64,000 nucleotides of DNA from Lawsonibacter asaccharolyticus (lineage in GTDB: Bacteria; Bacillota; Clostridia; Oscillospirales; Oscillospiraceae): the NCBI GenBank assembly GCA_003112755.1, contig BFBT01000001.1, forward strand, positions 2,356,001 to 2,420,000, read 5' to 3'. A program made the position numbers and the translations under genes. This document shows positions 49,033 through 64,000 of this stretch, one piece after another. Position 1 is the first letter of the stretch, and each line of letters opens with the position of its first letter. Under the pieces are notes generated by a model that saw only the letters and a list, made by a program, of their open reading frames with translations, had not been told where the DNA came from and did not search any database.

Positions 49033-49899
49033 ATGCTTGAACTGAAAGCCGTGACGGAAAGCTATCCCCACACACTGCCCCTGAAGGACGGCCGGGTGAC
49101 CAGCGATAAGGTCCATCTCAATTTTACAGAGTTTAAATTTGCTCATGAGGCTTTTGACGACCAGGTGGAGAACCAGCCCTATGACGTGTGCGAGTTGGCT
49201 GTGGGAACCTTTTTCCAGGCGCTTGATTTTAAAAAGCCCCTGAGACTGCTCCCAGTGGTCTGCTTGGGCTCTTTCCACCACGGTAGCATCTGGTATGATC
49301 CTGCCCAGGGCGTTGTGAGACCGGAGGATTTGAAGGGGGCACGGGTGGCTGTCCGGGCCTATACCCAGACCACTGGTCTGTGGTGTCGCGGCGCATTGCA
49401 GGAGCACTTTGGAATTTCGCCCCAGGACGTAACCTGGGTGACCACCGAGGCACCCCATGTAGCTGGTTATGAAAGTCCGTCTAATGTCGTCCGTGCTCCC
49501 GAGGGGACCAAGCCGATGGATTTGATTGCCTCCGGTGACTGCAAGGCCATCATTCTGGGGCCCCGGAACGCCAAGGGGACCAACCTGGAGCATGTGGTCC
49601 CCAATGTGGACGAGGTTGTAGAGGCGTGGCGTGCTAAGCATAATGCCATCCCCATTAACCACATGGTCACAGTGACGGAGGATATGATTCAGAATTATCC
49701 CGAGGCTGTACAGGAAGTGTACGACATGTATAAGAAGGGGTATGAGATCGCCAAGGCGGCTGGGGAACTGTCTCCCGCAGTGCGCATCGGCCAGGACGCC
49801 GTCTGGCATACCCTTGAGGTCTGCATGGACTACTGTGTGGCCCAAGGTCTGACCTCCCGTAAGTTTACCAAGGAAGAGGTGTTTGCCCCCGTCGTCTGA
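49033..49899 (+). CDS. 4,5-dihydroxyphthalate decarboxylase-like protein
   Basis: The 288-residue cytosolic protein (no signal peptide) resembles Pht5: LKDGRVTSDKVHLNFTEF, YDVCELAVGTFFQAL, LPVVCLGSFHHGSIWY, the PEDLKGARVAVRAYTQTTGLWCRGALQEHFGI block and a helical C-terminus. The family shares a periplasmic-binding fold and includes decarboxylases and binding proteins. Lack of a signal peptide favours an enzyme. ATG 49033 has AAGGAGGAAATAC upstream. It is first in the island. Confidence 0.72.
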   Translation: MLELKAVTESYPHTLPLKDGRVTSDKVHLNFTEFKFAHEAFDDQVENQPYDVCELAVGTFFQALDFKKPLRLLPVVCLGSFHHGSIWYDPAQGVVRPEDLKGARVAVRAYTQTTGLWCRGALQEHFGISPQDVTWVTTEAPHVAGYESPSNVVRAPEGTKPMDLIASGDCKAIILGPRNAKGTNLEHVVPNVDEVVEAWRAKHNAIPINHMVTVTEDMIQNYPEAVQEVYDMYKKGYEIAKAAGELSPAVRIGQDAVWHTLEVCMDYCVAQGLTSRKFTKEEVFAPVV

Positions 49900-49960
49900 G
49901 AGGCTGGAGCAACAGACGATTTGGGCGGCAGTCCGCGCCACACAGCAATAAGAAGAAAAG

Positions 49961-50005
49961 TAGCTTCCAGCAGTTCATCCTTTGAGTTGCTGGGAGCTAT
50001 TTATA
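49961..50005 (+). terminator. Hairpin terminator
   Basis: TAGCTTCCAGCA (49961-49972) pairs with TGCTGGGAGCTA (49988-49999), one G-U pair, followed by TTTATAC. Confidence 0.6.
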
Positions 50006-50083
50006 CGAATACAGGTGTTCGACCGGTGCTTCAGGGAAAAAAGTGGGCAGCGGGCGGATGCAGACAAGGGAGTGTGTGAAACA

Positions 50084-50287
50084 ATGGCAAAAAAATATCA
50101 GCTTACCATCAGGGAAACCCACTGCAAGCAGTGCGGAATTTGTTCATACTTATGTCCGCGGAAGGTGTTGACTCAGGAGATGGGCCACTGTCCAGTGGCT
50201 ACGCACATGGAGAACTGTATCGGATGCCGGCTGTGCGAGATGCGCTGTCCGGACTTTGCCATCGAAGTGGAGGAGGCTGGGAAATGA
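50084..50287 (+). CDS. korD: 2-oxoacid:ferredoxin oxidoreductase, delta (ferredoxin) subunit
   Basis: 67-residue 2[4Fe-4S] ferredoxin-like subunit with CKQCGICSYLCP and CIGCRLCEMRCP clusters, passing electrons between the TPP subunit and external ferredoxin. ATG 50084 is first in an operon ordered delta-alpha-beta-gamma. Its stop overlaps the alpha-subunit start (ATGA), so the two are translationally coupled. Confidence 0.88.
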   Translation: MAKKYQLTIRETHCKQCGICSYLCPRKVLTQEMGHCPVATHMENCIGCRLCEMRCPDFAIEVEEAGK

Positions 50288-61897: not shown

Positions 61898-62260
61898 ACT
61901 AAAACCCCCTAAATTTTAATTCAGACAACCAGGCGGAGTTTGAGATGCATCCTAGGAATGATTGGATAAAGAAAGTGTATCATGGGGGGAGGGGGATGTA
62001 AAATAACGAATTTCAATCCTGTCATAAATAAAATAAATTTATGCCGCGTCAAATAAAGAGAAAATTGCGTTTTAATGGTTCGATATGCATACATAGTACG
62101 TGTTTATCCTTTTCAACCCCAATTTAATGATTTTTATACGTTATACATAAATTGATTTTATATACCATAAATTAATACAATTTTACAATTGTTTTTCTAT
62201 AAGTTATAGTTTGTTTATACAAATTCTCCAAGTTAAAATTTCAAATTGAGGAGGGTAAAC
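61898..62260. promoter_or_regulatory. AT-rich divergent promoter region with CATAAAT repeats
   Basis: No gene is seen between the PanE-like (-) and LeuC-like (+) starts. The inverted pair CATAAAT (62023-62029) / ATTTATG (62037-62043), N7 between, fits a LysR-type dyad. Direct repeats CATAAATT occur at 62146-62153 and 62166-62173, 20 bp apart. Exact promoters are not assigned. Confidence 0.45.
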
Positions 62261-63508
62261 GTGAAAAAGACTATTGTGGAAAAAATCATCGCGAAGCACG
62301 CCGGCTTAGATGACGTGAATCCCGGTGATATTGTAGATGTCAAAGTGGATCGGCTGATGATCAACGACTCTAATGGCCCAACGGTATTTAAGAACTTTCA
62401 GAAGCTTGGGGTAAAGGAAGTGCAAAATAAGGAAGGAATCCTTGTTGCCGTGGACCACCGTGTTCCCCCATGGGAGGCGCTGCAGGCCAACAACATTGAT
62501 TTCTGCCGTAAGTTCTGCCGGGAGCACCAGATGGACGGCTTCCGGGAGATTGGCCGCCACGGGATTGGACACCAGATGATGTGCGAGCAGTTTGTCCGCC
62601 CAGGAGAGATTGCCGTGGGGACGGATTCCCACTCTACCATGTATGGTGGAATGGGGGCTCTGGGTTGCGGCATCAACTCAGCTGATGCCGCGGTCATCAT
62701 GGCTACTGGTACCATGTGGATGATGGTCCCGGAGAGCTGTCTCGTGACCTTGAAGGGCCGGCCGAAGAAGGGTGTCACCGCAAAGGACATCGCTCTGAAG
62801 ATCCAAACCATTGCCCCCCCAGACCACCTGATTTATAAAGCAATCGAAATTGGAGGCGACTATGCCCACGAGATGAGCGTGGCCAGCCGTCTGGTCATTG
62901 CCAACATGATGTGCGAGACGGGCGCCAAGTGCGGCATCCTGCCTCCGGATCAGGTGGTTGCGGACTACCTGGAGGAGAAACTCTGCAGTCTGGCTTCCGA
63001 CCCGGACGCGGGTTACGCAGACCGGTATGAAGTGGATTTGGATGCCCTGGAGCCGGTGCTGGCCTGTCCCCACGCGGTTCAGAATGTGAAAAACGTCACC
63101 GAGGTGGAGGGTGTCAAAATTCAGCAGGCCTTTTTGGGTTCCTGCACGAATGGACGAATTGAGGACTTCCTGCAGGCCGCTGAGATTCTCCGGGGACAGA
63201 AAATCCACCCTAATGTGCGGATGATCGTAGTTCCCGGCAGCCAGACCATCTACCTGGAGATGGCCCGCATGGGTCTGTTGGAAATGTTTACGGAATGCGG
63301 AGCCGCGGTACTGAGTCCCGGCTGTGCCTCCTGCGGAGGCTTTGGCCCGGGTACCATCGGCAACGATGAGGTGTGCATCTCCACCACCAACCGTAACTGG
63401 CAGGGGCGCATGGGCCCGAAGTCCTCGTCTGTATACTTGGGCTCTGCTTACTCTGTGGCCGCCGCCGCTGTGGCGGGCGAGATTGTCTCGCCTCTGCGGT
63501 ATCTGTGA
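62261..63508 (+). CDS. Aconitase-superfamily hydro-lyase large subunit (LeuC/DmdA-like)
   Basis: 415-residue protein of the 3-isopropylmalate dehydratase large-subunit family, with cluster ligands Cys295 (GSCTNG), Cys355 and Cys358 (GCASCGG). TDSHSTMYGGMGALGCGINSADAA and CISTTNRNWQGRMGP are also present. GTG 62261 has GAGGAGGG 5 bp upstream. Relatives act on isopropylmalate, citramalate, homocitrate or dimethylmalate; the catabolic context argues against leucine synthesis. The small-subunit gene follows after 18 bp. Confidence 0.87.
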   Translation: MKKTIVEKIIAKHAGLDDVNPGDIVDVKVDRLMINDSNGPTVFKNFQKLGVKEVQNKEGILVAVDHRVPPWEALQANNIDFCRKFCREHQMDGFREIGRHGIGHQMMCEQFVRPGEIAVGTDSHSTMYGGMGALGCGINSADAAVIMATGTMWMMVPESCLVTLKGRPKKGVTAKDIALKIQTIAPPDHLIYKAIEIGGDYAHEMSVASRLVIANMMCETGAKCGILPPDQVVADYLEEKLCSLASDPDAGYADRYEVDLDALEPVLACPHAVQNVKNVTEVEGVKIQQAFLGSCTNGRIEDFLQAAEILRGQKIHPNVRMIVVPGSQTIYLEMARMGLLEMFTECGAAVLSPGCASCGGFGPGTIGNDEVCISTTNRNWQGRMGPKSSSVYLGSAYSVAAAAVAGEIVSPLRYL

Positions 63509-63526
63509 GAGAGGGGGAGCAAGAGC

Positions 63527-64000
63527 ATGAATACTGTATTTTCAGGCAAAACCTATGTAACCGGTGACAACACCACCGCCTATAAGATCTCCTACAACAC
63601 CCGCTGGAAGGAGTGCGGTACGAACGCAGAGGCCCTGGGCCAGTGGCTGTTTGAGCCTATCATTTCCACAGTAGAGGGTGTCCCTAATGGCTTCAAGTCC
63701 ATGGGCTATGAGGTAGTTGTTTCCGGTGTGGACTTCGGCGGAGGCTTTAAGAGCAACGACCACCCGGTGCTGACCCTGAAGGGCGCCGGCATCAAGCTGC
63801 TGATTGCGGAGAAATTCAACCGGATTTTCTTCCGCAATGCAATCAATTTGGGCATGCCCGTTATCACCTGTCCCGGTATTCTGGAAATGGCCCACGAGGG
63901 TGACATTCTGGAGGGGGACATCGCCACAGGTGTGGTCACAAACAAGACCACCGGAGCCGTTTTGCAGGGGCAGCCCCTTAGTGAGTTGGCCTTGAAGTTA
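63527..64000 (+). CDS. LeuD-like hydro-lyase small subunit, divergent and cut by the window end
   Basis: The frame from ATG 63527 (GAGGGGGAGCAAG upstream) is open to the last base, 158 codons so far. It aligns with LeuD/DmdB swivel domains at its middle and end (VSGVDFGGG ... LTLKGAGIKLLIAEKFNRIFFRNAINLGMPVITCPGI). It lacks the canonical GSSREHA loop, reading GGGFKSNDHPV instead, and has NTTAYKISYNTRWKECGTN where LeuD has NIDTDxIIPARY. The partner of the large subunit just upstream, it probably has unusual substrate specificity. The C-terminus is outside the window. Confidence 0.78.
   Translation, partial: MNTVFSGKTYVTGDNTTAYKISYNTRWKECGTNAEALGQWLFEPIISTVEGVPNGFKSMGYEVVVSGVDFGGGFKSNDHPVLTLKGAGIKLLIAEKFNRIFFRNAINLGMPVITCPGILEMAHEGDILEGDIATGVVTNKTTGAVLQGQPLSELALKL

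Follow-up and report, generated by a model that had tools for sequence, protein, structure and literature searches.

A described system close to the gene island analysed here is the lower pathway of gallate and protocatechuate 4,5-cleavage (GalB-GalC-GalD; LigI-LigJ-LigK). The island begins at position 49033 of a 64,000-nucleotide stretch of the Lawsonibacter asaccharolyticus genome (contig BFBT01000001.1, positions 2,356,001 to 2,420,000), hereafter called the window. Like the aromatic pathway, it features a PIG-L homologue devoid of the deacetylase base and an RraA-type aldolase homologue, and proteobacterial relatives of its Pht5-like and AmH proteins are encoded near LigJ. Unlike that pathway, it has neither a dioxygenase nor PrpF/GalD, its GalB proteins form a separate group, and a DUF6282 protein, a 2-oxoacid:ferredoxin oxidoreductase (KOR), a coenzyme A (CoA)-transferase and a TAXI-TRAP importer are found instead. 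In the excerpts available of two reports, the LigJ/LigK homologues of Sodalis ligni (PMC9241852) and the gallate dioxygenase and 2-pyrone-4,6-dicarboxylate (PDC) hydrolase of Hydrogenophaga (PMC5264521) are unlike the island type.

Other described systems resemble single parts of the island. The 4,5-dihydroxyphthalate decarboxylase Pht5 (PDB 9jp7) matches an island protein over residues 3-239; the island protein has no signal peptide by eye and is shorter (288 vs 349 residues). All four subunits of KorDABC 2-oxoacid:ferredoxin oxidoreductases are present; KorA scores above the NF006412 cut-off, and KorB and KorC fall short of those set for the profiles they match best. With respect to LeuCD/HacAB/DmdAB hydro-lyases, the island LeuC exceeds the NF001614 cut-off, whereas LeuD has lost the GSSREH motif. 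Nicotinate fermentation, the pathway of Eubacterium barkeri, also features an amidohydrolase-superfamily hydrolase and a LeuCD-like pair, but its mutase, isomerase and lyase families were not found in the island. A literature search over titles and abstract openings revealed no anaerobic GalB/GalC, PDC, Pht5-structure or DUF6282 pathway, and DUF6282 is named nowhere in the literature searched. A preliminary description of the window had stated that no described pathway has this gene set, which holds within the reach of that search.

Gene content and conservation

The island represents a conserved version of the lower meta-cleavage gene set for aromatics, without oxygenases and combined with enzymes of ferredoxin and acyl-CoA metabolism. 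The genes named in the preliminary description all correspond to intact open reading frames (ORFs) in the window and to the families it had given, as assigned with Pfam (20/20 island ORFs) and NCBIfam (17/20). The set was said to be free of oxygenases, and no oxygenase family matched any of the 20 island ORFs at E ≤ 0.001; PrpF (the GalD family) was not found among them either. Three window genes left unnamed at that stage encode a DUF6282 amidohydrolase, a LysR regulator and a MATE transporter. The window sits inside a 3.5-Mb contig, and the proposed extension past 64 kb revealed that the island runs for about 5.9 kb more, to approximately window position 69940 (stretch L004). This extension completes LeuD and adds, in order, a TAXI solute-binding protein, a fused TRAP permease, GalB2 (PIG-L), GalC2 (RraA) and AmH (Amidohydro_2).

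Conserved clustering in relatives, singled out beforehand as a test of the preliminary description, was found in the Clostridiales metagenome-assembled genome BH.6_1 (locus L017), the GalB1 orthologue of which is 87% identical. There, 17 of the 20 island genes lie in one stretch, in an order unlike that of the window: KPR, LeuC, LeuD, TAXI, TRAP, GalB2, GalC2, AmH, Pht5, DUF6282, GalB1, LysR, KorD, KorA, KorB, KorC and CoA-transferase. GalC1, MATE and the 2-hydroxyacid dehydrogenase are missing from the L017 cluster. Co-occurrence of 17/20 genes on the L017 contig shows that the grouping is above chance. Across the 17 shared genes, the proportions of nonsynonymous (pN) and synonymous (pS) differences range from 0.07 to 0.29 and from 0.79 to 0.94 (saturated), respectively, and pN/pS ranges from 0.08 to 0.37; the block is therefore under purifying selection. 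The mapped genes are the following.

49033..49899, + strand: Pht5-like protein (4,5-dihydroxyphthalate decarboxylase-like, NMT1 fold); PF09084; PDB 9jp7, E 9.6e-20
50084..50287, + strand: KorD, 2x[4Fe-4S] ferredoxin subunit; Fer4/Fer4_7; ATG start at 50084
50281..51426, + strand: KorA, 2-oxoacid:ferredoxin oxidoreductase alpha subunit; NF006412, 513.6 bits (cut-off 411)
51429..52250, + strand: KorB, thiamine pyrophosphate (TPP) subunit; PF02775; best NCBIfam NF007207, 291.5 bits, below the cut-off of 364
52270..52800, + strand: KorC, gamma subunit; PF01558
52947..54275, + strand: CoA-transferase (AcetylCoA_hydro family); PF02550/PF13336
54753..55676, + strand: DUF6282 amidohydrolase-superfamily protein; PF19799, E 6.2e-63
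55714..56439, + strand: GalB1, homologue of PIG-L-type 4-oxalomesaconate hydratase; PDB 5cgz, E 1.8e-40; SAHAAD motif
56684..57364, + strand: GalC1, homologue of RraA-type pyruvate aldolases; PF03737; G-X20-RD-X2-E motif
57465..58457, - strand: LysR regulator; PF00126/PF03466; 57% relative at L017
58535..59893, + strand: MATE family transporter; PF01554; outside the L017 cluster
about 59899..60867, + strand: D-2-hydroxyacid dehydrogenase; PF02826/PF00389; outside the L017 cluster
60950..61897, - strand: KPR, ketopantoate-reductase-like dehydrogenase (ApbA family); PF02558/PF08546; 78% orthologue upstream of leuC in the L017 contig (L104)
62246..63508, + strand: LeuC-like hydro-lyase large subunit; PF00330; NF001614, 476.6 bits (cut-off 385)
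63527..about 64066 (L004:28-570), + strand: LeuD-like small subunit with an altered catalytic loop; PF00694; GFKSNDH for GSSREH
past the window (L004): TAXI solute-binding protein; TIGR02122, 181.8 vs cut-off 84.35 bits
past the window (L004): fused TRAP permease; TIGR02123, 529.4 vs cut-off 320.65 bits

Both TIGR02122 and TIGR02123 are above cut-off, identifying the importer as a TAXI-TRAP transporter. Matches to island proteins are rare in related genomes. Including the host genome itself, GalB1 is matched in 4/200 genomes of the family (E ≤ 1e-20) and in 3/391 of the class (E ≤ 1e-25), LeuD in 6/398 of the phylum (E ≤ 1e-30; the five others are 43-48% identical) and Pht5 in 3/398 of the phylum (E ≤ 1e-15). 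The LeuD and Pht5 searches revealed no further islands. By eye, the L017 genome carries a second carboxylate cluster (L122:2171-5999) with RraA, 2-hydroxyacid dehydrogenase, isopropylmalate-dehydrogenase-like, LeuD and LeuC genes. In Colidextribacter sp. OB.20 (L018:3546-4103), KorABC lies directly 5' of DUF6282, and GalB1 stops after residue 186.

GalB loci and the ferredoxin-linked group

The solved structure closest to GalB1 is the 4-oxalomesaconate hydratase 5cgz, aligned over residues 5-235 of 241; the next, 2ixd, matches at E 7.6e-8. PIG-L deacetylases presumably carry a general-base Asp at a motif in which it is replaced in GalB: GalB1 reads SAHAAD, GalB2 SAHNTD and 5cgz SAHSAD. The deacetylase Asp is missing in 66/66 of the GalB sequences listed, a count in which L012/L022 and L015/L035, which are the same loci, each appear twice, as they do in the RraA motif count below; GalB2 and its L017 partner have Thr. 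By good homology, GalB1 is a predicted CHM (4-oxalomesaconate) hydratase.

A scan of named genome contigs with seven GalB-like proteins found 183 relatives; the analysis covers the 80 best loci. Gene presence was scored by tblastn, because simple gene calling gave antisense ORFs in some loci; loci truncated by the end of a contig may seem to lack genes, and weak matches are included in the counts. DUF6282 is found in 54 of the 80 loci, in 50 of them together with RraA. Importer genes (TAXI, TRAP, TctA or TctC) are present in 38/80, and a ring-cleavage dioxygenase in 25/80 (VOC-type extradiol in 16, LigB-type in 9). The two coexist in only 2/80 loci, namely L063 and, via a 22% TRAP match, L080. 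A dioxygenase is present in three (L042, L048 and L054, all from Bacilli) of the 43 loci closest to GalB1 (L017-L059). Neither LigB or VOC dioxygenases nor PrpF gave any match in L017-L022. In many Bacillota and Spirochaetota records, genes for the lower half of aerobic aromatic degradation seem to lie beside TRAP/Tct importers with no dioxygenase. Some of the dioxygenase-free loci belong to Bacillales, and such loci are not all from anaerobes. PrpF is found in 7/80 loci and never together with DUF6282 (0/80; Fisher p 2e-4, uncorrected for kinship). In a GalB tree of 59 rows (ORFs of 225-275 residues, which leaves out L018 and others), a branch supported at 100/99 separates GalB1, GalB2, the L017 partners of both and the four Pht5-linked GalBs from the 14 dioxygenase-linked GalBs included.

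The six loci nearest GalB1 (L017-L022; GalB 53-89% identical, the next being 46%) all carry KorA or IorA, as opposed to 0/74 of the others (E 1e-10), a contrast in which some of the 74 loci are short, other enzyme types escape detection and the six positive loci are interrelated. One clostridial-type group adds ferredoxin-linked 2-oxoacid oxidation to the dioxygenase-free GalB module. Kor is found in L017 and L018, and a two-subunit Ior-like enzyme in L019-L022, with an alpha-subunit match in all four. Pht5 is present in five of the six loci, the exception being L018, which starts inside KorA at a contig end. Acyl-CoA outlets occur in four: L017 has a CoA-transferase, as does the window, and L019, L020 and L021 have butyrate kinase and phosphotransbutyrylase. 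Neither outlet was seen in L018 and L022. L020 is from Clostridiales bacterium 1_7_47_FAA, a culturable organism. In L019, curated cut-offs are exceeded by butyrate kinase and Ior beta but not by Ior alpha or phosphotransbutyrylase. The use of two different outlets for one step argues that acyl-CoA formation is part of the pathway. By good homology, KorDABC would oxidise a 2-oxoacid and the CoA-transferase would move CoA. KorA has no other match in its own genome at E ≤ 1e-10. The CoA-transferase scores 412 bits against the butyryl-CoA:acetate CoA-transferase profile TIGR03948, below its cut-off of 674.8 bits; its paralogues in the genome are 79% (G000:C1:2940817-2942121) and 42% identical.

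A cluster resembling the 2-hydroxyglutarate route of glutamate fermentation was identified by eye elsewhere in the genome (L102, G000:C1:2560000-2579999); its genes include those for glutaconate CoA-transferase, HgdC and a symporter similar to GltS. As the genome has this separate cluster, 2-hydroxyglutarate fermentation was rejected as the purpose of the island; it may at most provide a link in L017, where genes similar to those for 2-hydroxyacyl-CoA dehydratase subunits and a carboxyltransferase, all below cut-offs, lie just 3' of the CoA-transferase.

The aldolase homologues were compared with the two metal motifs of HMG/CHA aldolases (GalC/LigK, RraA-like), D-X20-R-D and G-X20-R-D-X2-E/D. 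GalC1 has G-X20-RD-X2-E, with G and E where the metal motif requires them, and is a putative C-C-cleaving aldolase by virtue of this retained motif. According to the available excerpt of a survey, most RraA-like aldolase homologues carry one of two motifs (PMC5065237). In our count, 12/70 sequences fall outside the regular expression, and one sequence scored as other (L072) is a bad match. No GalC1 orthologue was found in the L017 genome, though another RraA is present elsewhere in it.

Pht5, AmH and DUF6282 proteins

The Pht5-like protein is 81% identical to its counterpart in L017 and 48-49% identical to those in L019-L022. Plasmid relatives among the matches listed (15 of 96 records) are proteobacterial and 30-35% identical; six of these 15 carry the annotation ABC-transporter binding protein, one MqnA/MqnD/SBP and eight none. 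With relatives annotated in this way, it is the 9jp7 match that points, tentatively, to a decarboxylation step. Thirteen of the listed plasmid loci, two of them from one species, were examined. LigJ is found near Pht5 in 10/13, an AmH orthologue in 7/13 and either of the two in 12/13, along with RraA (4/13), HpcH-type lyases (6/13), TPP-dependent enzymes (5/13) and a protocatechuate-3,4-dioxygenase-like gene (4/13); in part, then, these are aerobic aromatic clusters. The LigJ copy of L134 matches solved 4-oxalomesaconate hydratases (6dxq, E 1.5e-144). We assume that LigJ and GalB differ in fold. Pht5 thus lies beside an oxalomesaconate hydratase in two phyla, with different hydratase folds, which supports a flow through the oxalomesaconate/CHA node. 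L134, L140, L142 and L143 each carry at least two Pht5-like matches, LigJ, AmH, a protocatechuate-3,4-dioxygenase-like gene and an HpcH-type lyase, as in an aromatic or phthalate-like pathway. AmH adjoins Pht5 in L017, and the same adjacency is observed in Paraburkholderia.

The AlphaFold2 model of the DUF6282 protein (pLDDT 92.2) has the fold of the amidohydrolase superfamily, to which LigI presumably also belongs. Foldseek gave 207 matches in the PDB (E ≤ 0.001), and the 50 listed are nearly all from this superfamily, with TM scores by query length of 0.36-0.63, and include dihydroorotase, isoaspartyl dipeptidase and phosphotriesterase-like lactonases (best E 2.3e-7). By sequence, the only PDB matches below E 1 are two chance matches to FabZ. 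The Thermus oshimai plasmid pTHEOS01 (L135) carries, in a row, genes for catechol-2,3-dioxygenase, GntR, DUF6282, PIG-L, CHA aldolase and an NAD(P)-oxidoreductase, with 4-hydroxybenzoate 3-monooxygenase one small gene further on the opposite strand. The locus reads as a putative protocatechuate meta-cleavage pathway with the PDC hydrolase still to be assigned. By elimination at this locus, DUF6282 may be the enzyme that hydrolyses PDC or tautomerises oxalomesaconate, and thereby gains a concrete candidate role.

Proposed route and alternative explanations

The reading we favour, to which we give about even credence, is that the island allows a di- or tricarboxylic acid to be imported and fermented without oxygen, by way of the 4-oxalomesaconate/CHA node, to 2-oxoacids and then to acyl-CoA. 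Its reactions, all of which we infer from the observed gene content, conservation, selection, motifs and gene links, would run as follows. The TAXI-TRAP system would import the substrate, and DUF6282, judging from context and fold, may open or isomerise it into the 4-carboxy-2-hydroxymuconate/4-oxalomesaconate series. GalB1, and perhaps GalB2 too, would add water, and GalC1 would split the product into 2-oxoacids, e.g., pyruvate and oxaloacetate. The Pht5-like decarboxylase and AmH may take care of a surplus carboxyl group or belong to a side branch. KorDABC would convert a 2-oxoacid to acyl-CoA and reduced ferredoxin, and the CoA-transferase would regain the CoA bond. The LeuCD-like pair, KPR and the hydroxyacid dehydrogenase could provide accessory hydration and redox steps.

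Several observations weigh against this route. GalC2, which reads Q...RD..A in the host and in L017, matches neither aldolase motif; since L017 also lacks a GalC1 orthologue, the cleavage enzyme there is doubtful. The profiles do not fix the substrate of KOR. Active-site positions are altered in GalB2, in LeuD and in AmH, the last of which reads GSNFP or ASNFP in the host, L017, L132 and L134 at a position where its relatives presumably have Asp. The Pht5-like protein could, from its annotated relatives, be a solute-binding protein, and its link to LigJ may reflect aromatic breakdown only, as oxygenase genes occur at several of the loci. All seven PrpF loci are from Pseudomonadota, so that the mutual exclusion of DUF6282 and PrpF tracks phylogeny. 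An aldehyde dehydrogenase at the Thermus oshimai locus could bypass PDC. Lastly, in Mameliella and Agrobacterium, DUF6282 relatives at 32-33% identity have TRAP genes nearby but no PIG-L; the family is therefore wider than the GalB module. The preliminary description had pictured a fermentation in which an intermediate is hydrated, cleaved and oxidised; hydratase-like and aldolase-like genes alongside ferredoxin-dependent 2-oxoacid oxidation and two acyl-CoA outlets support this picture in part, GalC2 being a misfit.

As to the substrate, our leading guess, which is itself rather unlikely to be correct, is PDC or a near relative released by aerobic tannin or lignin degraders; PDC comes first because the intermediates known to follow it are the ones that belong to GalB and GalC. 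If true, anaerobes would receive ring-opened or pyrone acids as food from aerobic degraders of tannin or lignin. Bolder, and less probable still, is an oxygen-free entry into meta-cleavage, in which DUF6282 or AmH, together with Pht5, would hydrolytically open the ring of a polyhydroxylated or pyrone carboxylate to give 4-carboxy-2-hydroxymuconate, with energy gained via ferredoxin and acyl-CoA. DUF6282 would then be a new family of PDC-type hydrolases, and the odd LeuCD and GalB2/GalC2/AmH would represent new chemistry. The annotations "Pht5", "PIG-L deacetylase" and "RraA" in anaerobes would gain a better reading from the island.

A different explanation, on balance doubtful though deserving real weight, is that folds of the GalB, GalC and Pht5 type have been co-opted for a branched acid of different chemistry, such as 4-hydroxy-4-methyl-2-oxoglutarate, 4-methylene-2-oxoglutarate or a polycarboxylate from plants, and that they share only ancestry with the aromatic lower pathway. 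The altered residues of GalB2, GalC2 and AmH are kept in L017, and those of LeuD in both L017 and L021. Island LeuD reads GFKSNDH where PDB 3vba reads GSSREH, as it does in L017, and GFKSNDD in L021; the GSSRE Ser/Arg motif of aconitase and isopropylmalate isomerase small subunits, which we take to be catalytic, is thus absent from all three. Island LeuD also lacks the NxDTDxIIPAR segment, whereas the canonical LeuD encoded beside LeuB in the same genome keeps both. As judged from the sequences, these changes are conserved oddities rather than decay, and they speak against naming each enzyme by its best-known relative. The separation of the island GalBs from the dioxygenase-linked ones is in line with repurposing, and the butyrate kinase of L019, being above cut-off, hints at a non-acetyl acyl group. 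However, GalB1 and GalC1 keep hydratase-type and aldolase motifs, and proteobacterial Pht5 and AmH relatives are found near LigJ.

It is improbable that two unrelated pathways, Pht5-Kor-CoA-transferase-DUF6282-GalB1-GalC1 and LeuCD-TRAP-GalB2-GalC2-AmH, adjoin by chance. In the window, LysR, MATE and dehydrogenase genes stand between these two halves of the island, and LeuCD, TAXI, TRAP and AmH were not seen in the available DNA of L018, L019, L020 and L022. In L017, however, genes of both halves are intermixed within a single block in which AmH stands beside Pht5, an adjacency that recurs in Paraburkholderia, and L021 has both Pht5 and the odd LeuCD.

The nicotinate-type fermentation via 2,3-dimethylmalate that had been offered as a possible link is very improbable. 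It would account for the best NCBIfam match of LeuD, the LeuD/DmdB family (86.6 bits, below the cut-off of 108.95), as well as for an amidohydrolase-superfamily enzyme and two dehydrogenases. Yet the 2-methyleneglutarate B12 mutase, PrpF/Mii-type methylitaconate isomerase and dimethylmalate lyase families are all missing from the 20 island ORFs, to which this search was confined, LeuD has lost its catalytic motif, and GalB and RraA would be left without a role. By eye, LeuC retains its Cys ligand positions; a second leuC in the genome is 40% identical to it. That the island is a decaying remnant of an aromatic-degradation locus, as mobile-element remnants on both sides and the broken-off GalB1 of L018 might suggest, is hardly credible given 20/20 intact ORFs and the low pN/pS of the 17 genes shared with L017.

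The flanks and base composition of the island were also inspected. By eye, an IS110-like transposase and a transposase remnant lie upstream (window 44182-45576 and 47886-48374), and recombinase/insertion sequence remnants, followed by smc, lie downstream (L004:6909-9186). GC content ranges from 0.48 to 0.57 across window 40000-64000, and the island is not distinct by this measure. At window 60867-60923, where the hydroxyacid dehydrogenase and KPR genes converge, lies a 57-base stretch that is 88% identical to its reverse complement and is probably a two-way terminator.

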